64,000 bases of DNA from Pseudomonadota bacterium (GTDB taxonomy: Bacteria; Desulfobacterota; Syntrophorhabdia; Syntrophorhabdales; Syntrophorhabdaceae). Under the pieces are notes generated by a model. That model ran no database searches. It worked only from the letters and a program-made list of their open reading frames with translations, and was not told the origin of the DNA. A program made the translations under genes and the position numbers. Shown here one piece after another: positions 35,968-55,636 of the stretch (the stretch's first letter is position 1; each line of letters opens with the position of its first letter). The stretch is taken from contig JAPLKC010000025.1 of NCBI GenBank assembly GCA_026388255.1, positions 1 to 64,000 of the forward strand, given 5' to 3'.

Positions 35968-37162
35968 TCAATACCTTGAGCGGCGGTGCACCGGTCTGTA
36001 TATCGGCTCCGCTGTCCGCTTTTCAAAGGTCTTTTCCACATTCACGGGATCCAGGAACCTGCAGTGTCTGCCTGTGGATCGCTCATTAGAAACCTTCCTG
36101 ATGTAGAAGCTTAGGAAGAGCTCCTCCTTTGCCCGTGTGATTGCCACGTAGAAGAGCCTCTTCTCTTCCTCGATATCGCCCTCATCGGCATCAACAAGAG
36201 CCCTGTTCGACGGGAACACGCCATCCACCAGGCCGATAAGGAACACCCTGCCCCATTCAAGCCCCTTTGCTGAATGGACTGTGGAAAGGGTAAGAAATTC
36301 GAAATCATCATCTTTTGTATCCTTGTCGGGATCGACAGCTACATCGGCAAGAAAGCCCTTCAAGGTGCGGTACCTTTGGGCCATCTGTCCGAGCATGACC
36401 AGTTCCTTTACCCTGGACGAATCCTTCTTGTATTTCACCTTCATGATGGGGCCGTAATGCTCCATAACAAGCTCAAGCTGACGGGCCGGCAACATGGACG
36501 GACCGGAGATAGTCTGGAGAAGTGTTTTCAGGGAGGCAAATACTTCCGAGTTTTTCTGACCGGTGCAGAAGGGCAAAAAAACTTTATCGATAATATCTGC
36601 AAGGTTGTTGTAATGGATAATCAGCTCAAGAAGTCTTTCAACGGTCCTGACACCAATACCGGGAAGCAGCAGCAGGACCCGGTGCCATGCCAGTTCATCA
36701 GTGGGGTTAGCAACGAGCCTCAGTTAAGAGACTACATCGCGGACATGGGCCATTTCGGAGAATTTCCGACCCCCGAAGAGTTTAAAGCGTATCCCCTGTT
36801 TTACCAGTTCCGCCTGGAGGGGCATGGAGGTAAATACAGTCCTGAAGAGAATAGCCATCTCTCTCACGGCAATGCCGGTTGACTTCAGAGTCTGGACTCT
36901 CTGTGCCACCCAGGCAGCCTCCTCGTACACATCATCAAATTGTGATACCACAGGTTTTTTCACCAATGCTGCCCGTAGCCGACACAAGCCTTTTTTCGAA
37001 TTTATGTGACATGTTATTAAGGACCGCATTGCCCACATCAAGGATAGACTGGGTGCTGCGATAGTTTTCCTGGAGCTTGATTATTTTGCAGCCCTTGAAT
37101 TCCTTGGGGAATTGAAGGATATTCAGGTGATTAGCGCCCCTGAAACCGATATTAAAGTACAA
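35968..37162 (-). pseudogene. UvrD/Rep-type DNA helicase remnant
   Basis: The C-terminal two thirds of a superfamily I helicase. Motif IV region F-R-G-A-N-H-L-N-I-L and Q-E-N-Y-R-S-T near 37100 are present, as are V-H-S-A-K-G-L-E-W (motif V) and Y-V-A-I-T-R-A-K (motif VI) near 36150-36260. The N-terminal ATPase half with Walker A is missing. There is a frameshift at an A6 run (about 36957-36962), where A5 would restore the frame, and an in-frame TAA (36724-36726) where relatives have Tyr in D-V-x-x-Y-L-R-L. Three independent lesions make it a true relic. It is unrelated in detail to the AddA-like gene at 58134. Confidence 0.85.
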
Positions 37163-38587: not shown

Positions 38588-41500
38588 TCAGTCTTCTCTT
38601 CCCCCGTCACCAAAGAGGACAAAAGGTGCCCAGAACAGAGGATGGGCATAGCTTGCCACAATCTTCTGCGAAATCGGATCAATATATCCGGGATCTTTGA
38701 TTAGATTCAGCATGGCCTTTTGGAGTGCCTGGGAACGGGTATATTCTCTGTTCTCAATCTGATTTTGAAAGAGCTGCGTAGTCAGCTTTTTCGCCGATGT
38801 TGTTTCAACAGGATACATGGTTGCAATAACAGCCCTTGTGCCGGCATAGAAAAATGCCTTCCCGAGTCCGGAGAGTGCCTCAGCCCCCGATCCCGCCGCA
38901 GCACCTGTGTTGCAGGCAGAAAGTACAACCCAGTCAGCATTTAACTTCAACTTCATAATCTCGCCCATCGTCAACAATCCATCATCATTAATGCCGGTAA
39001 CCTTGGGTGAAGAAAGGGCAAGAGCCGGCTGGTCAAGTCCGTCTAAGTCACCGGGGACTAACGCATGAGTGGCAAAGGCAATAACCTGCCGGTCAGAGAG
39101 ATCCATGGTTTTAACCCTGTTTTCAGAAGCCTCTTTCCCCAAGAAAACATCGCGGGGCATGTCTGCTTTCAGTGCTACGGCAATAGCCTTAATTTCTTCG
39201 GCGGTATCAGGGAGACGTTCCAGGTTTTCAATCTGGCTTGAAATAAGCTTACTGCTGTCAAGCCCGCCCCTGTTTGACAGACGCACACTTCTCACCTGAA
39301 TCGTCGCCTCATTTGACGGGGTTTGTTTTTCTGACATGGCGACCTGTCCGGGATTGAAGATCGGATCGCCAAAGCCAGCAAAGGCTTTTCGTTGTATTGG
39401 GCCTGCAGGTAACATACGAAGCGAGATGAGCGACGATGCAGAAGGCACCATGGTTATAGAAACCTGACGAATAAGCCATGGGACATTTCTATATCCGTCA
39501 AAAAGGAGTTTCTCTTCTTTCGGTTGTTTAAACGGTTCTGTTGTGAGGGTAGCCAGGGGTATCTGGCTTATCGGCTCGTTTACTATGACCAGAATATCGT
39601 GGGCATCCTTCCATCCATCTCTTACCGGGAGGAAGAATGTGCTGAATAATTCATGTGCGAGGTTAGTGTCAAATAGTGGAATATCGCTGAATGAGGACGG
39701 ATTTGGGTCGAGTGATTTCCGGAGCGCTGAGACAATCTCATCGAGGTCTGTTTTAAGGACAGGCACGGAAGCAAATCTTATATTACCGCTCTGAGGAATT
39801 GCCCAGATGTATGTACGATCATCAAGGGTATAAATCGAAATCAGCGACTCATGGGGACGGAGGTGCTTTTGCACTGTAGCAGGGAGCGGGGTCTGTGGAT
39901 TGACAAACTCAGCGTATTTTTTTGAACGTTTTTTGATCTCGTCAATCAGTATGCCCCTCGCCTGCCGAAGAGCATCCAGTTTTGCATGGAGGCTTTTGAT
40001 TAGTTGCGGGTTCTGCTGGTCAGGCGATGCTGAGATGATTTCAAGAATTGAAGTCTCCGTAACGCTTATCTGTTTCAATGTATCCTGTTCCTGGCGGATC
40101 AGGTTGATAACCTCGGGATCTGTCTCTGCAGCCCTGGCGCTGCTTGCCATGACAGCACTCTGTACCGTTTGACCACGTGTTATCTCGGCGAGCTGAAAAG
40201 ACAATCCGATCGTATCAATCGCAGGATCGGTTTCGCGAACACGATCAAGGAGCCTCATGTAGTCCTGAATGATGATTTTCACCCGCTGGCTTCTGATATA
40301 GCCGCCTCTATCCGCAACATATTGCGTGAGTATATTGATTGAGTTAGAAAAGTCTTCCCGGGCCTGCTTGAGGTTCCCTTGACGGAAATGTGCCATTCCA
40401 CGGAGTGCCAGCATTTCTGCAGTATTGAAATCTTTCTCACCGAAGACGTTCCTGAACTTCTCGTAGTTATCGGATATGATGCCCGTTGCCTCCCCGGTGC
40501 GGCCTGTCATAAGAAGGGAAAGAAGTAGCGCCGGGTTTTTTGTAAACGATTTGTCATAAAGATATTGGTTTTCCTGCATGCCTGTTTTCACAAGATCGAA
40601 TTGCTCCATGGCGCGCCTGTAGTTGCCACTGGCGGTAAGCAAATTACCATAGCCGCTCCTTGCCTGAGCTGCTAACAGTGAATCGTTTGTAACTCCGGAA
40701 GCCTCGAGGGTTTTAATCGCTGAAGATAGCAGTCGTTCTGCTTCCAGGATTCTCCCCTGTGCTGCCAGGTCAAGAGAAATTATGAAGACCGCAAAAAATG
40801 TCTGTGCGGATTCCTGACCGCCATGACCGAGGGATTCATTCAATACATCGCGGGCTGCTATTTCTGACTCAAAAAAACGTCCCTGAAAAAACAGATTGCG
40901 GGCAAGCCATGTTTTCCAACGCAGTACGCCTCCAGGAGTGTAAAAATTAAATTGTGCGCCAAGGGCTCTGTCGAGCGAATCGCGGATGTATGGTTCTGCC
41001 TCTCTGTATTTGCCCTGTGCCTCAAGGATAGCGGCTTCCATATGTGCTTTGATGATTTGGCAAAGGGCTGCTCCTCTTTTCCCTTCTCTACAATTCCTGA
41101 TTCCATCCTCTTTTATCCTGCTTGCAGCTTCTATGTCTCCTATGGAAGCGTATGTAAACGCCAAAAACGCATAACTCCATATGTAATTTGATGCCTTTAT
41201 ATTTTGTTCGTATAATTGTATGGCACGCCGAAAATTGCCGGCTTCTCTCTCGGCAGTAGCAAATTTTTGTATAAAAATAGGATCTGTGATCCCTGCCTTC
41301 CCGGCATAATGTTCAGCCATCTTACCATCTTCCAGCGTCTGCTTGCTGCGGCCTAATTCATATGCTGCAATGCTTCTGTTTTTATAGAAATCTGCCTGGC
41401 CTTGTTCGGTTTCGTTAGCTGGAGGAGCAGCAGCGGCTTTACTTTTATAGTAGTCGGTAGAGCCTGAAGTAGACTTACCGGGTTGATTTAATATCGCGGT

Positions 41501-41656
41501 GATGTCTTCAACACGACGTGGCGGGGGCACAAAAGTGTCCTCGCCCATCATAGAGATAGTTACCCGTTTTGCCTCTTCTAAAGACATGGTTGTTGTTGTA
41601 ACACAAGACTGGAGTGTAGCTACGATCAGGGATAATATGAGAAGGATCCTGCCCAT
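38588..41656 (-). CDS. TPR lipoprotein with C-terminal CHAT protease domain
   Basis: 1022 residues. The lipoprotein signal ends L15-Q16-S17-C18. The residue after the cysteine is Val, not Asp, so outer-membrane sorting is likely. Roughly 90-480 is a helical repeat array with TPR-like units (F-R-R-A-I-Q-L-Y-E, G-N-Y-R-R-A-M-E-Q-F, G-N-L-K-Q-A-R-E-D-F). A coiled segment spans about 500-590. The CHAT (caspase-like, clan CD) domain fills the C terminus, with catalytic His864 in F-A-T-H-A and Cys915 in L-S-A-C-N-T-G, both intact. The family cleaves proteins; the TPR part would recognise the target. It stands divergent from a CHASE2 cyclase and FecR operon and is flanked by direct repeats. No clear ribosome site. 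Confidence 0.85.
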   Translation of the reverse strand: MGRILLILSLIVATLQSCVTTTTMSLEEAKRVTISMMGEDTFVPPPRRVEDITAILNQPGKSTSGSTDYYKSKAAAAPPANETEQGQADFYKNRSIAAYELGRSKQTLEDGKMAEHYAGKAGITDPIFIQKFATAEREAGNFRRAIQLYEQNIKASNYIWSYAFLAFTYASIGDIEAASRIKEDGIRNCREGKRGAALCQIIKAHMEAAILEAQGKYREAEPYIRDSLDRALGAQFNFYTPGGVLRWKTWLARNLFFQGRFFESEIAARDVLNESLGHGGQESAQTFFAVFIISLDLAAQGRILEAERLLSSAIKTLEASGVTNDSLLAAQARSGYGNLLTASGNYRRAMEQFDLVKTGMQENQYLYDKSFTKNPALLLSLLMTGRTGEATGIISDNYEKFRNVFGEKDFNTAEMLALRGMAHFRQGNLKQAREDFSNSINILTQYVADRGGYIRSQRVKIIIQDYMRLLDRVRETDPAIDTIGLSFQLAEITRGQTVQSAVMASSARAAETDPEVINLIRQEQDTLKQISVTETSILEIISASPDQQNPQLIKSLHAKLDALRQARGILIDEIKKRSKKYAEFVNPQTPLPATVQKHLRPHESLISIYTLDDRTYIWAIPQSGNIRFASVPVLKTDLDEIVSALRKSLDPNPSSFSDIPLFDTNLAHELFSTFFLPVRDGWKDAHDILVIVNEPISQIPLATLTTEPFKQPKEEKLLFDGYRNVPWLIRQVSITMVPSASSLISLRMLPAGPIQRKAFAGFGDPIFNPGQVAMSEKQTPSNEATIQVRSVRLSNRGGLDSSKLISSQIENLERLPDTAEEIKAIAVALKADMPRDVFLGKEASENRVKTMDLSDRQVIAFATHALVPGDLDGLDQPALALSSPKVTGINDDGLLTMGEIMKLKLNADWVVLSACNTGAAAGSGAEALSGLGKAFFYAGTRAVIATMYPVETTSAKKLTTQLFQNQIENREYTRSQALQKAMLNLIKDPGYIDPISQKIVASYAHPLFWAPFVLFGDGGRED

Positions 41657-41818
41657 GATTGTCTATATGTTATATCATAAACAAAGATAAAAATATTATA
41701 TTTGATTGTATTGGCTTCCAGGGGAAAGTTGTTACGTTTTTGGCGTGCTTAAACATGGGAATTCTGAAATTCAAAAGACGACTTACAAAATTATGTGATT
41801 TTGTCCAACTGAAAAAAC

Positions 41819-41848
41819 TTGACAAATTATTTGGTTTTTAACCATAAA
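41819..41848 (+). promoter_or_regulatory. Sigma-70 promoter of the CHASE2 cyclase operon
   Basis: TTGACA (41819-41824), an 18-base spacer, CATAAA (41843-41848). The right-hand direct repeat begins inside this promoter. The left copy of the repeat lacks the TTGACA. Confidence 0.5.
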
Positions 41849-41897
41849 ATCGATAAGTTCGTATTGATAAATTGCTGATAATTTGCTTTTCTTGTGT
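41833..41897. repeat. Direct repeat, right copy
   Basis: Partner of 38512-38565, 3.3 kb apart, enclosing the CHAT gene and its leader. Contains an extra TGATAATTTGC relative to the left copy. Confidence 0.85.
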
Positions 41898-41988
41898 TAT
41901 TTTTATCGCATGCCGAAAAAAATCCTGTCAGTTCTTCTGGACTCAAAAGTAGTTTCGGTAAAATATGCATGAGTACTCAAAGGAATGC

Positions 41989-43803
41989 ATGAGGAAAAGA
42001 AAATACTGGGTTCCGATAATCATTGGTTTTGTCATAACGGGAATTCTCTTCCTGACACAAAGACTGTGGAATCCCCTGGACCTGAAGTCATACGACATCA
42101 GGTTCCAAATATCTGAATTGCTCGGCATTGGACAAGTACAAACCTCAGGCAGAATAGTGGTTGTTGGTATCGATGAGAGAAAACTTCTCTCGGAAAAACC
42201 CCTTATGTTCCTTTATCCTGACATTGGAAACTTTATTAACAAAATGAGTGATTACAAAGTATCCGTCATCGGGCTTGACATCATCCCTATCCATGAACAG
42301 AGCGAGAAGTTCAAGAAATCGGTCCTCTCGCTCTATGACAAAACTCCGCAGGCCTACATTAGCTTCATAGAAAAGACCGGCAGGAAGCTCGATAATTCGC
42401 TTCTTGAACCGATCATACGTGTCTCTCGTGATATTCCTGTGGTACAGGCATATCACGAGAGCCTGACACCTTTCTACTACGGGCTGGTACCATTCATGGG
42501 CAATGTCCATCTTTCAGATATCGTGCTTACTGATGGCGACACGACAAGAAACGACGGCATCATACGCAGGCAGGAACTGCTCCCCGGAAACAAGGAGTCC
42601 TTTGCTTTTACAATCGTCAGGCTTCTTGACCATCAGTCGCCACCTTCTGCGTCAGTCAATCTGAACTTCTTCCTCCTCAAAAATATCCCGATCTTCTGCT
42701 TTGAAGACGTTATGCACGGCAAGGTTGGGCAAGATGCCTTCCGGGGGAAAGCGGTTATTCTCGGCTACATAAGTCCCCATGAGGATGTCCATCAGACACC
42801 GCTCAGCAATTACAGACTTTCTTCTTGCGGAGGGGCAATGCCTGAAAAAATTGCATTGCAAAGAAAGGTCCGTATCCCGGGTTCTCTCATACATGCCGTG
42901 GCAGCCGAGACTCTCCTGACAAAGACTTTTCTTAAAGACCTCGGCATGACAATAAAGGCCGCCTTGCTTATTATTCTTGGTCTTACAGGAATTTCCATAG
43001 CGTTGAAAATGAAGCCCCAGTATGGAATATCCGCCACTTTTCTATTGATGTGCATCTATTTCGCGTGCAGCGTATTTTTTTTCTCACGGGGTCATATAAT
43101 CCCTTTATTCCCCCATATCCTCGCCCCGTTCCTTGTCACGGCATTTATTTACCCCTACCACTACATTATAGAAGAGAGGGATAAGAGGCGACTCTACAAG
43201 ACTTTTGGATATTATGTGGACAAAGAAGTGATCGACTCCCTCATTGATCGGGACCCTGAAAACCTCCTGAAGGGCGAATATAGAGATGCCTCTATTCTGT
43301 TCCTTGACATCAGGGACTTTACAATGCTCTCGATGAACCATAAGGCTCAGGATATTGTGAGCCTCCTGAACCTTTATTTTGGAACCATTACCGACATTGT
43401 GAAACATCACGGCGGGTTTGTGAACAAGTTCATCGGCGACGGAGTTCTCGCATTTTTTGCAGGTGAAGAGAACCCGGTAAGTAGCACGATACAATCCGCC
43501 CTTGAAATCCTTCATGAAACGCAAAGACTGAACGATGAAGGTGTGCTCACGCCATTCATTGGAGATACAAAACTTTTTATTGGCATAGGCATTCACTATG
43601 GAAAGGTCGTAATGGGGAACATCGGATCTGAGAAGAAGATGGACTTCACTATTATGGGTGCCAATGTGAACATTGCATCAAGAATAGAGGGGCTTACCAA
43701 ACAGCTAAAAAAACCTGTGCTTTTAAGCGCTTCTGCGTATAATATGCTGAAAGACGAATACTGTTTCGAGGATCTCGGAACCCAGGAGGTGAATAATGAG
43801 TAA
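41989..43803 (+). CDS. CHASE2-domain class III adenylate/guanylate cyclase
   Basis: About 604 residues. A basic N terminus and TM1 (V-P-I-I-I-G-F-V-I-T-G-I-L-F-L) lead to an extracytoplasmic CHASE2 domain of about 270 residues. Three more TM helices lie near 310-400, followed by a cytoplasmic class III cyclase domain. Metal-binding Asp residues are in L-F-L-D-I-R-D-F and F-I-G-D-G. A lysine two before F-I-G-D and N-I-A-S-R near the end are the substrate and transition-state residues, so it should be active. ATP is the likelier substrate. The ATG at 41989 has AAAGGA 5 bases before it; the track ATG at 41965 has none. It overlaps the FecR gene by 8 bases. Confidence 0.88.
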   Translation: MRKRKYWVPIIIGFVITGILFLTQRLWNPLDLKSYDIRFQISELLGIGQVQTSGRIVVVGIDERKLLSEKPLMFLYPDIGNFINKMSDYKVSVIGLDIIPIHEQSEKFKKSVLSLYDKTPQAYISFIEKTGRKLDNSLLEPIIRVSRDIPVVQAYHESLTPFYYGLVPFMGNVHLSDIVLTDGDTTRNDGIIRRQELLPGNKESFAFTIVRLLDHQSPPSASVNLNFFLLKNIPIFCFEDVMHGKVGQDAFRGKAVILGYISPHEDVHQTPLSNYRLSSCGGAMPEKIALQRKVRIPGSLIHAVAAETLLTKTFLKDLGMTIKAALLIILGLTGISIALKMKPQYGISATFLLMCIYFACSVFFFSRGHIIPLFPHILAPFLVTAFIYPYHYIIEERDKRRLYKTFGYYVDKEVIDSLIDRDPENLLKGEYRDASILFLDIRDFTMLSMNHKAQDIVSLLNLYFGTITDIVKHHGGFVNKFIGDGVLAFFAGEENPVSSTIQSALEILHETQRLNDEGVLTPFIGDTKLFIGIGIHYGKVVMGNIGSEKKMDFTIMGANVNIASRIEGLTKQLKKPVLLSASAYNMLKDEYCFEDLGTQEVNNE

Positions 43804-44665
43804 AACGTTGGCTACTTTAATATTAATACTTGCATGCATGTTGACCCTCATTCCAGGATCATCGTACTCCTTAGATAATTTCGGGATGTTGTTTGAGATT
43901 GAAGGCGATGTCAAGGTAACTGATTCTACAGGGAAGACATCCGGTCTGAGCAGGAGCAAGGATCTTCTCCGTCCGATTGTGGAGGGTGATAGGATTGAGG
44001 TCGCAAAAGGAAAAGCTATTGTTGTTTCCGCAAAGAAGAACAAAGGTTATGAATTTACCTCGAATTCAACAGGACAGGTGAAGGGCGATAAAATGCTGAC
44101 GATCAAGGGCCAGATCAATATAAAAGATGGTCTTCATGCGCCAAGGGAAAGCTCGCCGGGAACCATGGGCGCCCTTGTGCTGAGAAAGGATAAATCTCTA
44201 TGTTTAGGGACATTATCGCCTTTGAACACTGCAGTCATTGAGCTTGCACCAGAGCTCAGATGGAAAAACTCCTGCCAGGGGCCGAAGAATGTAGCGATAA
44301 TTGTATTTGATAAAGAAGAAGTTGTATATGCCTCAAAAACCGATAAGGATAACCTTAAAATCCCAAACAATATCCTGAAATATGGCAACATATACCGGTG
44401 GATCGTAAAAAGTAATCGTCTTGAGGCCGGTGGGAGGTTTAATATACCTGAAGAAAATGAGGTCAATGCAATTCAGAAGAAACTTTTATCTTCGAGACTG
44501 AACAAAGACGATACTTCCCAAAGACTTTCCCTTGTCTTCTATCTCCTTGCAAAGAACTTTATGGAATTGGCGAAAGATGAGATAACGATGCTCCGGAATG
44601 ATTTCCCTGACAATGAGTATTTCAAAAATATTCTTGTTGATTGGACCAATGGTGATAGCCACTGA
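43796..44665 (+). CDS. FecR-domain periplasmic protein
   Basis: 289 residues with a signal peptide (basic start, then L-I-L-I-L-A-C-M-L-T-L; cut near S-S-Y-S). Residues about 30-110 resemble a FecR-type beta domain: G-D-V-K-V-T, a D-R-I-E-V-A-K-G-K-A turn and a repeat of short strands. The C terminus is helical. FecR domains sit in the periplasm and often pair with CHASE2 cyclases and secreted sensors. A perfect AGGAGG site lies within the end of the cyclase gene, so synthesis is coupled. It could hand a periplasmic signal to CHASE2. Confidence 0.75.
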   Translation: MSKTLATLILILACMLTLIPGSSYSLDNFGMLFEIEGDVKVTDSTGKTSGLSRSKDLLRPIVEGDRIEVAKGKAIVVSAKKNKGYEFTSNSTGQVKGDKMLTIKGQINIKDGLHAPRESSPGTMGALVLRKDKSLCLGTLSPLNTAVIELAPELRWKNSCQGPKNVAIIVFDKEEVVYASKTDKDNLKIPNNILKYGNIYRWIVKSNRLEAGGRFNIPEENEVNAIQKKLLSSRLNKDDTSQRLSLVFYLLAKNFMELAKDEITMLRNDFPDNEYFKNILVDWTNGDSH

Positions 44666-45071: not shown

Positions 45072-45809
45072 ATGAGTACTTTTGAACACATCCGGGAAAC
45101 CTTGAAATACATGATCATCGTTGTAGTAACGTTTGCTGTCCTCCAGGCGCTGGTCATCATCATGCACGAGTTTACCCATAGCATCAGCGCATGGCTCCTC
45201 GGTTGTATGCCAAATCCTCTCGGCATCGTCTGGGGAAATCCTCTGACGATGACTTGCTGGGATGAAGGGGTGCATTATTACCGACTCTTTCCCTCCGCCA
45301 ATTGCGCTACGGAAGCGATCATCGGCGGGAGCCCCCTGGGCGTCCATGCGGTCATTGTTATCCTTGGCCTGGTGTTTCTGCAGAAAGAAGGGATGAAGAA
45401 TAGGAAATGGCTCATGCACATCCTGTTCTGGTTTGTCATTGCCAATTTCATGGAACTTATTGCCTATATCCTGATGCGCCCGTTTGCCTCAGGAGGAGAC
45501 ACCGGCCATTTCAACCGGGGGCTGGGGCTTTCACCCTGGATACTCTTTATCGTTGGAACGCTGATGATCATGGTGGGATTGCACATCCTGTTCCGTAGAA
45601 TCCTGCCCCTTATGTATGCCATCTTTGCGCGGAAGAACCGCCTGAGCGAATGGATGATCCTGTCGCTGACCGCCTTTTTTCTTTTTCTGTGGGGCAGCGG
45701 GATACGCGTGGTACTTTACGTCTACCCGGATCCACAGTGGATGTTTGGTCTCCTTGGGTTTGTGGCATTTTGCCTGGTCTTGGCCGTATACAATCCAACC
45801 AGACGTTAA
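45072..45809 (+). CDS. Polytopic membrane protein with HExxH motif
   Basis: 245 residues, about six predicted membrane helices. H32-E33-F-T-H36 falls at the end of the first helix (V-I-I-M-H-E-F-T-H-S-I), the place of the zinc site in M50-type and related intramembrane metalloproteases. A matching third-ligand motif (NPxxD-like) is not evident, so activity is uncertain. The helices are followed by a basic C terminus. AAAGGA lies before the ATG. The 357 bases after it (45810-46166) show no gene I can support. Confidence 0.6.
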   Translation: MSTFEHIRETLKYMIIVVVTFAVLQALVIIMHEFTHSISAWLLGCMPNPLGIVWGNPLTMTCWDEGVHYYRLFPSANCATEAIIGGSPLGVHAVIVILGLVFLQKEGMKNRKWLMHILFWFVIANFMELIAYILMRPFASGGDTGHFNRGLGLSPWILFIVGTLMIMVGLHILFRRILPLMYAIFARKNRLSEWMILSLTAFFLFLWGSGIRVVLYVYPDPQWMFGLLGFVAFCLVLAVYNPTRR

Positions 45810-46166
45810 TCACCGCCGCTGAATTCAAAAGTTATCGCTTTCGTTTGTAAATCAACAACTTTTACTTTCATCTTATATCAACATTTTGTGCTCGTTTTTG
45901 ATGCTTTGCTATTTCCTGAAGTCCTGAACCGGCAAGCCGCCGGAAATTATGAAAAATTCAAATGGCATTTGATTATTGGATCGACGATTTTCTTCTTGAA
46001 GTTTGTTCACAATTGCGGGAGAATGGATTCATGGGCGGGAAAATCAATAAAGTTACGGAAGTTACCAACGTCCCCGATGGCCCCAGAGAACGTTCCTTCA
46101 GTCCCGTGAAGCACTCTTACCAAAATATGCAAGGTCCTTTTCGAATTTCACCTGATGGAGGTGGCC

Positions 46167-48773
46167 ATGAGTGATCCAGATTTTGCCTTAAAGATACTTC
46201 AAGAAATCTACGAAGAATTTAGAGAGTTTTGTAAGAAGCATGGGAATGTTAGCGAAGCGGACACACGAGTAAAAATTATAGATCGAATACTGACTGAGGT
46301 TCTTTTATGGCCTGAGAGCCAAATAAAGCGAGAGGAAAGAACCCAACAGGGATTTATGGATTACCGCCTGAGTGTTCATGGGCGGCCATATGTGGTAGTG
46401 GAAGCTAAAAAAGAAGGATTGCCATTTGTATTTCCCGTACCGGTAAACCGGAAATATTTGAGCCTTTCTGGAACCTTGTTGACAGGTGAAAATGTTGGCG
46501 AGGCTGTAAAGCAGGTTCGGGGATACTGCGATGATCAAGGCATTAGATACGCCGTGGCTACCAATGGGTACTCATGGGTAGTATTTAGAGCCATTCGTGA
46601 AGACATACCATGGCGTTCTGGTATGGCAAAAATTTTCTCAGGCATGGAAGACATCATTGCTGATTTTACCGAATTTTGGAACACTCTCTCCTATGATGCA
46701 ATCTACCGCGGTTCTCTGGACGCTCATTTTGGAGTGTCGCGGCGTACAAAGCGCGAGCTTCACAGAGTTACAGATCGGCTATTTAATGCCGATCTGCCCT
46801 TGCAACGAAATCGGCTTAATGCCCAGTTACATCATCTTATCCGCAAGATTTTCGAGGATATAGCCGATCAAGATCAGGTCGAAATCCTTCAATCATGCTA
46901 TGTGCATTCTGCTAGTCTTAAAATCATAGCAAAAGACCTTGATCTTGTTATCACCGATTCTATTCCCAGTCTTTTAAAAGATGAGGGAACTATACCAATA
47001 TTTCAAAATAAGTCTGATGCAGGTCGTTTTGGAGAGTCTGTAGCTATAGCGATTAATTCACAAGATAGTCAACTCTTCCTGCTTTTGGGAGGAATTGGTT
47101 CTGGAAAAACCACTTTTCTGAAGCGTTACCAAAGAACAGTTGGTAAGGATTTGCTGGAGCAGAATGTTGTCTGGTTCCATGTTGACTTTCTGCAGGCGCC
47201 TCTCGATCCATTTCAAATGGAAGAGTTTGTCTGGCGCTCTGTTTTGGAGCAATTGAGAGGGCGATACAGCACCCCACATTTGGAAACGCATCGTGATATA
47301 AAACGTGCTTTCAGAGATGAAATAGAAGCTTTGAAGGAAACAGCTCTAGTATATCTACAAGAGGGGACCGAAGAATTTGAGAAAATTTTATCGCCTTTTC
47401 TTCAGAAGTGGCAAGAAAACTTGCGAGAGTATGTCCCTCGATTGCTCACCATTTGCAGACAAAAGCGAAAGAAGGGTGTTCTTTTCTTCATAGACAACGT
47501 AGATCAATTACCGCCTGACTATCAGGCTCAGATTTTTTTATTGGCTCAAAGAATTACTAGGATAGTCAACGCAATCACTATAGTTGCCCTTCGGGAAGAA
47601 TCATACTATGCTGCAAGTATTCAAAGGAGTTTTACCGCTTACACTAATCGTAAATTTCATATTGCTTCCCCAAGATTTGGGGTGTTATTAGGAAGCCGGA
47701 TTAAATTCGCTCTCGGCTATTTGGAAGGTTTACCTGGAATTGTAGAAATAATGGATTCCAAAGGAATAAGCATCGATAAGGCTGCTGTAGCTGATTTCTT
47801 GAAAATTGTCCAGAATAGTATCTTTGAAAAGAACAAAAACATAGCGCGATTTATTGAGGCAATATGCTATGGAAATATGAGACGTGCTTTGCAGATGTTT
47901 ACTACTTTCCTTGTATCTGGAGCTACCGACGTTGATAAAATGCTAACCATACATAGACGCGATGGTAATTATTATGTGGCCTTCCACGAATTTGTCAAAT
48001 CCATCATGCTGGAGGATAGGTACTACTATAAAGAAGCTCATAGCCAGATCATGAATGTTTTTAATTGTTCAAATCAGAATAACTCAAGCCATTTCACAAG
48101 CTTGCGCGTTCTAAACTTTCTGTTGAATTGCAGGGGAGATTCAAGCAAAGAGGGACGCGGTTTTGTTGAAATAGCCCGCTTAGTCGAGACATTTGAGGAC
48201 GTCTTCGATAATAGAGAAGATTTGCTGATAGCAATGAATTCTCTCGTGAGTAGGCAGTTGTTAGAGATTAACACTAGGGCTACAGAGAACATTACAAATG
48301 CCAGTCACATCCGGATAACTTCCGCTGGCTGGTACTATTTGCGATATCTCGTAAACTCCTTCGCCTATTTGGATCTAATATTACAGGATACTCCGTTTAG
48401 TGACAAAGCTATTTGCGATGAGATAAAAGATATGGTTGCTAAAGTAGATAACTTAGTTGACAGAGAGGAAGAGAAATGGGAAAGGACTAGTACTCGATTC
48501 CGGCGTGTGGAGCTTTTTCTGGATTATCTTCTGAAAGAAGAAAAGGAAGAATTCTCCAGGTTTGATTTGGGTTCCATCGAGGGTGAACTTGGTGAGATAT
48601 TTGTTTCGAAAATTAGGGAACGCTATGACAAACAGAGGGAATGGATTACTCATCGGTTGAAAGAAAATAAGGAGAAATACTCTGAAGAACAACTGTTCTG
48701 GGGATTCGACGCTGAAGAAAAAGAAATGATTGCTGCGGCAGAAGAAGGTGGGGAAGTCGACAAAGATTTTTAG
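46167..48773 (+). CDS. PD-(D/E)xK (HsdR_N-like) nuclease fused to P-loop ATPase, candidate defence protein
   Basis: About 868 residues. Residues 35-145 resemble the N-terminal nuclease domain of type I restriction HsdR: a Glu in V-S-E-A-D-T-R, Asp65 in F-M-D-Y-R-L, and Glu79/Lys81 in V-V-V-E-A-K-K form the PD-(D/E)xK set. A helical linker leads to a P-loop NTPase with Walker A G-G-I-G-S-G-K-T-T (308-316) and Walker B V-L-F-F-I-D-N-V-D near 437-447, plus A-L-R-E-E as a possible sensor. The last 350 residues are helical with no recognised domain. There are no DEAH helicase motifs, so it is not HsdR. Start 46167 follows GGAGG; the ATG at 46155 contributes that site. A single-gene nuclease-STAND/KAP-like antiphage system is the best guess. 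Confidence 0.7.
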   Translation: MSDPDFALKILQEIYEEFREFCKKHGNVSEADTRVKIIDRILTEVLLWPESQIKREERTQQGFMDYRLSVHGRPYVVVEAKKEGLPFVFPVPVNRKYLSLSGTLLTGENVGEAVKQVRGYCDDQGIRYAVATNGYSWVVFRAIREDIPWRSGMAKIFSGMEDIIADFTEFWNTLSYDAIYRGSLDAHFGVSRRTKRELHRVTDRLFNADLPLQRNRLNAQLHHLIRKIFEDIADQDQVEILQSCYVHSASLKIIAKDLDLVITDSIPSLLKDEGTIPIFQNKSDAGRFGESVAIAINSQDSQLFLLLGGIGSGKTTFLKRYQRTVGKDLLEQNVVWFHVDFLQAPLDPFQMEEFVWRSVLEQLRGRYSTPHLETHRDIKRAFRDEIEALKETALVYLQEGTEEFEKILSPFLQKWQENLREYVPRLLTICRQKRKKGVLFFIDNVDQLPPDYQAQIFLLAQRITRIVNAITIVALREESYYAASIQRSFTAYTNRKFHIASPRFGVLLGSRIKFALGYLEGLPGIVEIMDSKGISIDKAAVADFLKIVQNSIFEKNKNIARFIEAICYGNMRRALQMFTTFLVSGATDVDKMLTIHRRDGNYYVAFHEFVKSIMLEDRYYYKEAHSQIMNVFNCSNQNNSSHFTSLRVLNFLLNCRGDSSKEGRGFVEIARLVETFEDVFDNREDLLIAMNSLVSRQLLEINTRATENITNASHIRITSAGWYYLRYLVNSFAYLDLILQDTPFSDKAICDEIKDMVAKVDNLVDREEEKWERTSTRFRRVELFLDYLLKEEKEEFSRFDLGSIEGELGEIFVSKIRERYDKQREWITHRLKENKEKYSEEQLFWGFDAEEKEMIAAAEEGGEVDKDF

Positions 48774-51492: not shown

Positions 51493-53550
51493 ATGGAACC
51501 TGAAACATTAAATAAACAGAGCTTTTTGTTTCCCGGGAATGGAACTTCCAGCGATATAAGCATCAACAACAATAAATGCCGCAGGTGCTTCTACTGTATA
51601 CAGATATGTCCTGCAAAGGCCATCAGAGTCGAAAAAAACAGCATTAAGATAATCCCTGAGCGGTGTCTCTTGTGCGGAAGCTGTATAACATCATGCCCCC
51701 GTCAGGCATTGGATTATAAGAGTGGTCTTGGCCATGTGGTTAAGCTGTTATCAGACAAGGAAAAAACAATAGCCTGCCTTGATCCGGCATTTCCGGCAGA
51801 CCTCAATATGTGTACACCAGGACAACTTGCAACGACTCTGAAAACAATCGGTTTTACAGAGGTCTGGGAGGGCGCCTTCGGGGCTGAGTTGATATCCCGG
51901 GCTTACAGAAAACTTCTTTTAGAAGAAACCGGCGAAATGATAATTTCCTCCTTTTGTCCCGTAATAGTTTTTTACATTCAAAAATACCTTCCCCAACTGA
52001 TTCCTAATATAGCGCCCATCGTATCTCCAATGATTGCCATAGGCAGGGTTGCCCGTGAAATAAAAGGGGCAGACTGGAAAATTGTCTATGTAACACCTTG
52101 TATGGCTCAGGCAAGAGAGATGAATGTCCCCGAAGTAGCCGGGGTTATTGACGAAGTAATTACCTTCCGCGACATAAGGCAATTGATTGACAGAAAGGGC
52201 ATCGATTGCAATAAGCTTGATGAGACTAATTTTGATGGTCCAAAACCTTATCTCGGAAGGACAATTTCTGTAACACCAGGACTTTACAGGACCATTGATG
52301 TACATTATGATATTTTGATGGACGATATCAGCGTTATATATGGACAAAAACGAGCCATAGGTGCATTAAATCAGTTGGCAGTAGATTATATAAAGACTAA
52401 ATTTCTCGATTTTGTTTACTGTTTTGGCTGCGTGAATGGGCCTTTTGTCGACAGCGAATTGTCTGTCCTTGGCCGTCGGCAAGTAGTCGTAAGGCATGCA
52501 AAGGCTGAAATGAGCCGCCAGGATGTTGCGGATGTTAATGCCGAACTTGATTTATATAAAAATGTCGATTTGAGCAGGCGATTCGATAACATGGAACAGA
52601 AACTCCCGGTGCCGACAGAAGAACAGATAATGGCTGTGCTTAAAAAGATCGACAAATCCCCGCCGAACCACAATCTTGATTGCAGGGCATGCGGCCACGA
52701 GAGTTGTCGTGATAAGGCAATTGCAGTGGTTCAGGGGATTGCTGAGACGGAATATTGCCTGCACTACCTTCTTGAACAAAGTAAACAAATATATCAACAA
52801 CTTAAAAAGTCTCATAAACAATTACAGCAATCGCATCAGGAACTGGAGCAGGCTCATGCGCAACTGATAAAAACAGAAAAATTTGCCTCTCTCGGGCAAC
52901 TTGCTGCCGGTGTGGCACACGAGATCAATAACCCCCTTGGAACGATTACTATTTATTCCCATCTTTTATTAAAAAGTCTTGAAAATGAAGATCCCAGAAA
53001 AGAAGATATTGAATTGATTATAAGTGAGGCAAATCGTGCCAAAGAGATTGTTCAGGGGCTTTTGAGCTTTGCAAGGGAAACAAAGCTCCGTGAGTCCGAG
53101 ATGAATGTAAATGACCTGCTGGAAGATGTCCTTGCTCTTATAACAAACCAATCTTTGTTCTATAATATTAAGATAGAAAAGTCCTTTTATCAGGACATAC
53201 CAACAATCAATGCCGACGAGACCAAGCTTAAACAGGTTTTTTTAAATATTATTTTAAATGCCGCTCAAGCCATGGAAGGAAACGGGAAACTGATAATCAG
53301 CACAACTGCGGATAAAAAACAGGTTAAGATAAAGATTCAGGATACAGGTCCCGGTATTCCTCCTGAAAATATGGATAAACTCTTTTCCCCGTTTTTTACA
53401 ACAAAAGAGAAGGGGACAGGGCTTGGACTGGCTATTTCATACGGTATAATTGAGAGGCATAAGGGCAAAATCGATGTTTATTCGGAACTTGGAAAGGGCA
53501 GCACCTTTATCATAATCCTTCCAATAACAAAATGTGAAGAAATATCATAA
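51493..53550 (+). CDS. [FeFe]-hydrogenase-domain sensor histidine kinase
   Basis: 685 residues. There are two 4Fe-4S ferredoxin motifs (C29/32/35/39 and C58/61/64/68). An iron-hydrogenase large-subunit-like domain spans about 90-350 with H-cluster-type cysteines C155 (S-S-F-C-P), C203 (T-P-C-M-A-Q), and C310 and C313. A 4Fe-4S 'Fe-S' domain follows (C397, C400, C405, C422), then a Q-rich coiled coil, a HisKA box with H476 (V-A-H-E-I-N-N-P) and an HATPase with G-T-G-L-G-L-A-I. The last H-cluster motif is CxxC, not the catalytic CxxxC, so it is probably a sensor, not an H2-producing enzyme. It would sense H2 or ferredoxin redox state and phosphorylate the regulators encoded next. No Shine-Dalgarno is seen. 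Confidence 0.9.
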   Translation: MEPETLNKQSFLFPGNGTSSDISINNNKCRRCFYCIQICPAKAIRVEKNSIKIIPERCLLCGSCITSCPRQALDYKSGLGHVVKLLSDKEKTIACLDPAFPADLNMCTPGQLATTLKTIGFTEVWEGAFGAELISRAYRKLLLEETGEMIISSFCPVIVFYIQKYLPQLIPNIAPIVSPMIAIGRVAREIKGADWKIVYVTPCMAQAREMNVPEVAGVIDEVITFRDIRQLIDRKGIDCNKLDETNFDGPKPYLGRTISVTPGLYRTIDVHYDILMDDISVIYGQKRAIGALNQLAVDYIKTKFLDFVYCFGCVNGPFVDSELSVLGRRQVVVRHAKAEMSRQDVADVNAELDLYKNVDLSRRFDNMEQKLPVPTEEQIMAVLKKIDKSPPNHNLDCRACGHESCRDKAIAVVQGIAETEYCLHYLLEQSKQIYQQLKKSHKQLQQSHQELEQAHAQLIKTEKFASLGQLAAGVAHEINNPLGTITIYSHLLLKSLENEDPRKEDIELIISEANRAKEIVQGLLSFARETKLRESEMNVNDLLEDVLALITNQSLFYNIKIEKSFYQDIPTINADETKLKQVFLNIILNAAQAMEGNGKLIISTTADKKQVKIKIQDTGPGIPPENMDKLFSPFFTTKEKGTGLGLAISYGIIERHKGKIDVYSELGKGSTFIIILPITKCEEIS

Positions 53551-54139: not shown

Positions 54140-55636
54140 ATGGATGACAAGATAACGATTTTAGTCGTCGATGATGAAAAGGGTATCCGCGAAGGCTGCC
54201 GGAGAATCCTTGCAAGCGAAGGTTTTGACGTTAATGTGGCAGCTAATGGTAAAGAAGGCCTGGAAATGGTAATGGCCAGACCATATGATCTCATGCTTGT
54301 TGATTTAATGATGCCCGGCATGGGCGGTCTGGAGATGATGGAGCAGGTAAGAAAGATTGATCCTGAAATCATCATGATTGTTATCACCGGTTTCGCCACT
54401 ATTGAGACTGCCGTTAATGCAATGAAACGCGGCGCCTACGACTACATTCCAAAACCTTTTACGCCTGACCAGTTGCTTGCTTTTGTAAACAGGGGTCTGG
54501 AAAAACGCCGTTTGAGCATACAAGCAAAGCGGCTTATGGAAGAGAGGGATCAGAAGCTGCTGGAAGTTGCAAATGAGCGTTCGAAGACCCATACAATAAT
54601 AAACTCCATTGCCGACGGCATATTAGTAATCAACAGGGAGCGCCAGCTTGTGCTGTTTAACCCTGCTGCAATAAAAATGCTTGCATTAGGTGGAAAGCTT
54701 GAACCCGGAAAAGATATTAGTGAGATTATTATGAACGGAGATTTAATCCGTATTATTGAAAAAGGGTTCAGTTCCGAATCATCCCAGTATACAATGCTGT
54801 CGGAAGAGGTTGAGCTGTCAACGCCGATTAACAAGACATTGATGGTAAATGTTTCAAAGGTAAGAGATGAGATGGGACAGGACTTCGGGGTTGTCAGCAC
54901 CATGCGTGACATAACAAGCTTGAAGGAGATAAACCAGATAAAATCACAGTTTGTAGCAATGGTAACACACGAGTTGAGGGCCCCGCTCTCCGCCATTGAA
55001 GGATATCTTTCCGCATATTTAACCCAGGCAGCAGGAAGCGACCCGCAGATGTACAAACAAATGATGGAACGTGCAAAACAACGGGCACATTCATTGCTTG
55101 AGCTTATTAATGATCTTTTGCAGTACAGCCGCCTTGAGGTGAAGTCTGTTGCAAGGAAAAAGGAGCCTCTTAATATTTCCGATATTATTCTAAGCACTGT
55201 AGAATTGCTTAAAATGCAGGGTACGGCAAAGAACCTTAAGTTTGAAACAGATGTAACCGAACAGTTGCCTCTCATTGAGGCAGACAGGACTGAGATGGAA
55301 CAATTGATTACAAATCTTGTTTCCAATGCAATTAAATATAATGTTAAAAACGGAAAGGTAATAATAAATGCAAGACCCGACGGCAATTTCCTGCATATTA
55401 CAGTAGCCGACACAGGGATAGGAATCGACAAAGAAAGCTTGCCCTGTATTTTTGACGAGTTTTATCGTGTATGCGGGCCTGATACGAGGTATGTAACAGG
55501 CACCGGTCTCGGATTGTCTATAGTAAAAAAGATTGTGGAATCACACTTCGGCCACATTACAATAGACAGTAAGGTAGGCAAGGGTACGGCATTTACCGTT
55601 ATGTTGCCGATTCAACAGGGTAAGGAATCAAAATAA
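54140..55636 (+). CDS. Hybrid REC-PAS-histidine kinase
   Basis: 498 residues. An N-terminal REC domain occupies about 1-120 (V-V-D-D-E-K-G, phospho-Asp in L-V-D-L-M-M-P-G). A coiled linker is followed by a PAS domain at about 150-260 (I-N-S-I-A-D-G-I-L-V-I-N). HisKA has V-T-H-E-L-R-A-P-L near 275, and HATPase has N-L-V-S-N-A-I-K-Y, D-T-G-I-G-I and G-T-G-L-G-L-S-I. It can receive phosphate from the upstream kinase and autophosphorylate in response to the PAS signal, so it forms the second tier of a phosphorelay. No DNA-binding output is encoded in the operon; the final regulator must lie elsewhere. It lies 30 bases before the NfnAB gene. Confidence 0.9.
   Translation: MDDKITILVVDDEKGIREGCRRILASEGFDVNVAANGKEGLEMVMARPYDLMLVDLMMPGMGGLEMMEQVRKIDPEIIMIVITGFATIETAVNAMKRGAYDYIPKPFTPDQLLAFVNRGLEKRRLSIQAKRLMEERDQKLLEVANERSKTHTIINSIADGILVINRERQLVLFNPAAIKMLALGGKLEPGKDISEIIMNGDLIRIIEKGFSSESSQYTMLSEEVELSTPINKTLMVNVSKVRDEMGQDFGVVSTMRDITSLKEINQIKSQFVAMVTHELRAPLSAIEGYLSAYLTQAAGSDPQMYKQMMERAKQRAHSLLELINDLLQYSRLEVKSVARKKEPLNISDIILSTVELLKMQGTAKNLKFETDVTEQLPLIEADRTEMEQLITNLVSNAIKYNVKNGKVIINARPDGNFLHITVADTGIGIDKESLPCIFDEFYRVCGPDTRYVTGTGLGLSIVKKIVESHFGHITIDSKVGKGTAFTVMLPIQQGKESK

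Follow-up and report, generated by a model that had tools for sequence, protein, structure and literature searches.

A predicted exported TPR-CHAT protein encoded back to back with a CHASE2 adenylate cyclase and a FecR/DUF928-like protein: a putative envelope signalling module

The 64,000-nt stretch of DNA analysed here (the window) belongs to contig JAPLKC010000025.1 of the Pseudomonadota bacterium assembly GCA_026388255.1, a member of the family Syntrophorhabdaceae. It contains a locus of three genes, which consists of a gene for a predicted exported tetratricopeptide repeat (TPR) protein with a caspase-like CHAT domain and, back to back with it, a gene pair for a CHASE2 adenylate cyclase and a putative periplasmic protein (Table 1). 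A check of the open reading frames (ORFs) placed all three genes exactly where a preliminary description of this DNA had located them.

Table 1. Features of the TPR-CHAT/CHASE2 cyclase locus in the window
Feature	Position	Strand	Basis or remark
Exported TPR-CHAT protein, 1022 aa	38588..41656	-	Pfam CHAT and TPR_12; predicted outer-membrane lipoprotein, caspase-like protease
CHAT (caspase-like) domain	38606..39661	-	PF12770 match
Catalytic Cys915 codon	38912..38914	-	motif VVLSACNT
Catalytic His864 codon	39065..39067	-	motif FATHALV
Signal peptide and lipobox L-Q-S-Cys18	41603..41656	-	sequence reading and hydrophobic peak
Intergenic region between the divergent genes	41657..41964	.	308 bp
CHASE2 adenylate cyclase, 612 aa	41965..43803	+	Pfam CHASE2 and Guanylate_cyc
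CHASE2 extracytoplasmic sensor domain	42031..42987	+	PF05226 match
Class III cyclase catalytic domain	43276..43791	+	PF00211, residues 438-609
Periplasmic FecR/DUF928-like protein, 289 aa	43796..44665	+	orthologues in 13 family genomes; AF2; hhalign

The CHAT domain of the first protein (residues 666-1017) is matched by Pfam with 142.8 bits (E 2e-41; cut-off 24), and TPRs likewise score above cut-off, with TPR_12 reaching 47.7 bits. The caspase-like pair His864/Cys915, which the preliminary description had regarded as intact, occupies exactly the conserved positions of the CHAT dyad; among 79 aligned CHAT domains, the His is present in 76, the Cys in 75 and the complete pair in 73. The N-terminus combines a hydrophobic segment (residues 4-22) with the sequence LQSC18, which conforms to a lipobox with Gln, not the commonest residue, at position -2, and two orthologues (L001 and L002) carry LPSC at the equivalent position. 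The protein is thus predicted, as proposed before, to be an outer-membrane-directed lipoprotein and may act as a protease. An AlphaFold2 (AF2) model, which is based on three sequences only, has a predicted local distance difference test (pLDDT) score of 48.6 overall and a lower one still over the CHAT domain, and a phmmer search of the protein against the PDB gave no match. To our knowledge, exported CHAT proteins have no established role.

Pfam recognizes both domains of the cyclase, CHASE2 with 75.3 bits and Guanylate_cyc with 75.4 bits. One transmembrane segment precedes CHASE2 and a cluster of transmembrane segments follows it, and the catalytic residues are complete, comprising the metal residues Asp448 and Asp492, the adenine-specifying residues Lys488 and Asp560, and the transition-state residues Asn569 and Arg573. 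Domains, membrane layout and catalytic residues thereby bear out the earlier view of a membrane cyclase with an extracytoplasmic CHASE2 sensor, and the residues point to cyclic AMP (cAMP) as the probable product. The ligands of CHASE2 domains have been described as unknown (PMC5192318). Thirteen cyclic-nucleotide-binding domains are encoded in the genome, which are candidate readers of cAMP.

The third gene shares its first 8 bp with the end of the cyclase gene, is preceded by the strong ribosome-binding site AGGAGG and encodes a protein with a signal peptide, which is consistent with the periplasmic location assumed earlier. Its previous label as a FecR-type protein was not confirmed, as Pfam FecR (PF04773) matches neither the window protein, with E values up to 10 allowed, nor its nine closest relatives. 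Pfam DUF928 (PF06051) gave no match in the window protein either. When aligned by hhalign, the protein corresponds end to end (prob 98, E 2.5e-13) to a set headed by the third gene of L056, another CHAT-CHASE2 locus, in which this gene is a hybrid of weak FecR and DUF928 in Pfam. The alignment with pure DUF928 proteins is weak (prob 23.9, E 8e-4) and colinear over the C-terminal half; an unrelated control gave E 0.28. The third protein thus appears to be a distant FecR/DUF928-like protein, with the link being remote. We know of no function assigned to DUF928. The AlphaFold model of the protein (pLDDT 81) predicts a beta domain (residues 28-111), an Ig/Fn3-like domain (residues 135-220) and C-terminal helices. 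Among the Foldseek and VIA-align matches listed, residues 135-220 hit Ig/Fn3 domains only, and none spans the N-terminal beta domain, on which these matches therefore say nothing. A profile search with the periplasmic protein in 395 genomes of the phylum returned matches in family members only, and the wider survey was therefore run via CHAT, C14 and DUF928.

Within the family, the periplasmic gene has a strong match in 13 of 39 genomes and adjoins the cyclase gene wherever both are located on one contig examined. In seven genomes (G006, G008, G013, G014, G021, G031 and G034), which span the genera g4, g7 and g12 and differ in their gene surroundings, the divergent neighbour of the pair encodes an exported WD40-Peptidase_C14 protein of around 1000 aa, in which WD40 repeats are combined with a caspase domain whose His and Cys are intact. 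The intact copies begin with a signal peptide; the G034 copy is divided between two ORFs. Such a WD40-C14 protease is encoded in 11 of the 13 genomes with the cyclase/periplasmic pair versus 7 of the 26 genomes without it (Fisher p 0.0015). It is absent from the window's genome, where CHAT stands in its place. Because WD40-C14 is found at this position in seven relatives and CHAT in the window's genome, the slot for an exported caspase-fold protease is conserved, while its occupant varies.

Full-length relatives of the CHAT protein share 64, 53 and 49% identity with it. The only close paralogue in the genome (64%) is encoded on contig C96; its lipobox Cys is replaced by Trp, and 198 bp downstream lies the gene of a CHASE2 membrane protein without a cyclase domain. 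DNA similarity between the window and C96 loci comprises the CHAT gene (69%) and little else, and the two CHASE2 neighbours are therefore not one duplicated segment, so that segmental duplication was rejected as the origin of the second CHAT-CHASE2 pair. A periplasmic gene at the C96 locus (L004:12124-13011) was considered as a relative of the third gene of the window and rejected, since no similarity was detectable. Both CHAT copies are located near a UvrD-like gene: a frame-broken remnant of a UvrD/Rep-type helicase at 36106-37147 on the minus strand of the window is related at 36% to an intact UvrD-like gene, encoding 659 aa, just upstream of the C96 paralogue.

The survey of the phylum covered 70 CHAT genes on 60 loci, with the window's own genome excluded, and adjacency was determined from the examined loci using purpose-built profiles. 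CHASE2 is found within 1.5 kb of four of the 70 genes (in G180, G171, G175 and G001), where 0.06-0.08 cases are expected (P ~1e-6) if 220-300 CHASE2 genes in 197 genomes of ~3.5 Mb are assumed. In G171, the order is CHAT, CHASE2-cyclase and DUF928 (134 bits). The G001 locus starts with a gene sized like a secretion partner, which is followed by the genes for a 1959-aa protein combining two-partner secretion (TPS), TPR and CHAT domains, a CHASE2-cyclase and a DUF928 protein (108 bits). The order in G180 is CHAT, a FecR/DUF928 hybrid, CHASE2-cyclase and then a cyclic-nucleotide-binding protein. CHAT, CHASE2-cyclase and TPS-like genes also lie in a row on a Sphingobium plasmid. As a separate observation, genome G127 (loci L073-L075, L080 and L081) contains 11 CHAT matches, several of which are clustered on one contig.

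A further set of loci was obtained by searching with the DUF928 protein of G171, which led to 14 cyanobacterial records, all of them plasmids and several closely related to one another; CHASE2 and CHAT were again called with purpose-built profiles. Of the 14 loci, 12 have CHASE2 no more than 8 kb from DUF928, ten have CHAT no more than 6 kb from it, and nine have both. This linkage was not selected for, because the records were chosen by DUF928 and not by CHAT or CHASE2. The CHASE2 protein has no further domain in L135, L138 and L145, and it is combined with a histidine kinase in L140 and L148 and, more weakly, in L146 and L147. In three loci (L136, L137 and L144), an N-terminal CHAT domain, which has kept its His and Cys, is fused to CHASE2. 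Exported POTRA-TPR-CHAT fusions are encoded beside CHASE2 and DUF928 at L138:10716-14963 and L145:12281-16183, and the CHAT protease is thereby apparently tied to the outer-membrane translocation machinery. An N-terminal hydrophobic export segment is found in nearly all CHAT proteins of CHASE2/DUF928-type loci. DUF1822 genes recur beside CHASE2/DUF928 in Nostoc plasmids (L136, L137 and L142), and a gene for a sigma-70 family factor is present in L137 and L142; both are possible further parts of the module.

With moderate confidence, we interpret the three genes as an envelope-spanning module, which consists of an exported caspase-fold protease, a FecR/DUF928-like adaptor, a CHASE2 receptor and an interchangeable output, here cAMP. 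The TPR-CHAT protein would be a caspase-fold protease that carries a TPR scaffold and is located on the envelope's outer side; the FecR/DUF928-like protein would act in the periplasm as an adaptor that links it to CHASE2 in the cyclase of the inner membrane. The trigger would arise outside and might be a ligand bound to the TPRs, an envelope defect or cleavage by CHAT; it would be passed to CHASE2 by contact, upon which the cyclase would reply with cAMP, to be read by the cyclic-nucleotide-binding proteins of the cell. In our preferred order, CHAT is thus placed upstream of the cyclase; we infer this direction of signalling as well as the physical contact among the module proteins. The protease slot could be filled by CHAT-TPR or WD40-Peptidase_C14, and CHASE2 could be coupled to a cyclase or a histidine kinase or have no output. 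Since CHASE2 partners without enzymatic output exist, the comparison suggests that it is not cAMP that is constant but the three extracytoplasmic elements, namely the protease, the DUF928/FecR-like protein and CHASE2, and that the cytoplasmic output is variable; contact or cleavage in the envelope is therefore favoured as the common step. More tentatively, the window might hold the lipoprotein/cAMP variant of a widespread envelope system, which is composed of CHAT-TPR or WD40-C14, a DUF928/FecR-like protein and CHASE2, is often accompanied by TPS genes and converts proteolysis outside the inner membrane into a second messenger inside. The linkage of CHASE2, DUF928 and CHAT, together with the fusions, leads to one testable hypothesis that would cover all three, namely that a caspase-fold protease outside the inner membrane signals through a receptor in the membrane to a second messenger. 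If true, bacterial caspase relatives serve envelope signalling, beyond defence or cell death.

A number of observations weigh against the proposed module. The closest CHAT orthologues outside the genome (L001 and L002) follow an apparent threonine synthase gene and have no cyclase in their vicinity, so that the nearest CHAT subfamily displays the rare adjacency that the preliminary description had named as speaking against its own proposal. A full-length CHAT relative with 35% identity stands alone on a Bradyrhizobium plasmid, the cyclase/periplasmic genes are paired with CHAT in the window's genome only and have no adjacent protease in L011, L014 and L026, and both CHAT and the periplasmic gene are missing from the sole other genome of the genus. 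In the phylum, the co-occurrence of CHAT and CHASE2 expected from the preliminary description exceeds chance for the four loci mentioned above, but CHASE2 lies beyond 1.5 kb for the other 66 of the 70 CHAT genes. None of 54 C14 genes outside the family has CHASE2 within 1.5 kb, with one locus having it at 2.5 kb, and C14-CHASE2 linkage was thus rejected as a phylum-wide rule. The CHASE2 protein on C96, which lacks a cyclase domain, means that cAMP is not obligatory. The window contains no more CRP-like sites than chance would give (24 seen versus 29 expected), and the site scan found no shared regulatory site linking the genes. From the nearest orthologues, the majority of CHAT genes without a CHASE2 neighbour and the restriction of the exact layout to one genome, it could be argued that CHAT is an independent envelope protein, beside which the cyclase/periplasmic pair came to lie by happenstance in the window's genome. 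Such an accidental neighbourhood is improbable, however, given that WD40-C14 takes the equivalent divergent position in seven relatives, that the second CHAT copy adjoins CHASE2 too and that triads and fusions recur elsewhere. The joint function of the three genes put forward in the preliminary description is thus supported by these divergent relatives, by the CHAT/CHASE2/DUF928 linkage in unrelated bacteria and by the fusions, but not in the form of a fixed CHAT pair: the adjacency is beyond chance, yet CHAT is not its constant member.

It had also been proposed that signalling runs the other way, with CHASE2 and the periplasmic protein sensing, cAMP rising and CHAT being the output, which would be induced by cAMP or activated on an envelope target. 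We found no evidence that favours this order over the reverse one and regard it as rather unlikely. It would fit the divergent layout with its 308-bp intergenic region and the 13 cyclic-nucleotide-binding domains, and in Sinorhizobium meliloti, extracytoplasmic FecR and TPR proteins are encoded by genes under the control of CHASE2 cyclases and Clr (PMC5498481); however, the number of CRP-like sites, the tandem gene order in other lineages and the CHASE2 partners without enzymatic output, which could not be used in that order, argue against it. Craspase and predicted conflict systems have caspase and CHAT proteins as their effectors (PMC10028731, PMC8195603), and the PycC models of PADLOC match the cyclase domain of the window (76 bits), from which a module for defence or regulated death could be conceived, whose caspase-fold protease is activated by envelope damage from phages or rivals and in which cAMP is the alarm. 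This is very unlikely, since the PycC models respond to the class III cyclase fold in general and the CHAT and C14 partners, unlike the known effectors, which act in the cytoplasm, are exported; among the six proteins scanned, neither a complete PADLOC system nor a Pycsar effector (PycTIR or PycTM) was found.

The signalling module proposed here is best compared with the NsrA-CyaD1/CyaD2/CyaK-Clr system of S. meliloti (PMC13001267, PMC5498481), the best-characterised one, which also relies on CHASE2 adenylate cyclases. These are coupled to an outer-membrane protein and raise cAMP in response to a plant protein sensed via the outer-membrane barrel NsrA (PMC13001267), and the cAMP pathway includes periplasmic, FecR and TPR extracytoplasmic proteins. 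However, NsrA is a beta-barrel rather than a protease, and no CHAT or caspase has been described, so that the likeness is an analogy with a non-homologous partner. In the BiofilmReg operon of Burkholderia (PMC5192318), the gene of a periplasmic LysM/FecR protein adjoins that of a CHASE2 membrane sensor, but CHASE2 drives a histidine kinase and there is no protease. A WD40-CHASE2-DUF928 cluster of Nostoc punctiforme (PMC5587647) parallels the WD40-C14 version in the window's relatives; it was described as species-specific, however, and without CHAT, cyclase or mechanism. A caspase-fold protease is joined to CHASE2 in the metacaspase-CHASE2 fusion of Trichodesmium (PMC3501461, PMC2853523), which differs in that it is one polypeptide, its protease is predicted to be cytoplasmic, and there is no cyclase or periplasmic partner. 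The TPR-CHAT protein Csx29 of Craspase (type III-E CRISPR; PMC9729208, PMC10028731) likewise combines a TPR array with a CHAT protease, but it is activated by target RNA through gRAMP, whereas the window protein has a signal peptide for export. No Cas protein was found among the ~17 window proteins scanned, the rest of the window and the genome not having been searched for gRAMP. No paper was found that brings together a CHAT domain, CHASE2 and FecR, subscription literature and preprints being outside the search. As far as searched, the components and pairwise links are partly on record, while the protease-adaptor-CHASE2 module itself is not.

Several further genes of the window lie downstream of the cyclase operon. 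Directly 3' of it, 45072-45809 (plus strand) encodes a 245-aa protein with multiple transmembrane segments and a weak Peptidase_M50 match, which was left out of the module because the first set of relatives' loci contains no homologue. Two genes from the operon, an 872-aa P-loop nucleoside triphosphatase of the AAA_16/KAP-like type, whose N-terminus weakly resembles type I restriction HSDR_N, is encoded at 46155-48773 (plus strand); it weakly matches the PADLOC model mads_8 and is a possible defence gene. The gene at 51493-53550 (plus strand) encodes a protein of 685 aa in which an iron-only hydrogenase large-subunit domain and ferredoxin domains are fused to a histidine kinase (HisKA and HATPase). 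This protein is possibly a hydrogen- or redox-sensing kinase, and its gene is followed by a gene for a response-regulator/PAS kinase at 54140-55636.

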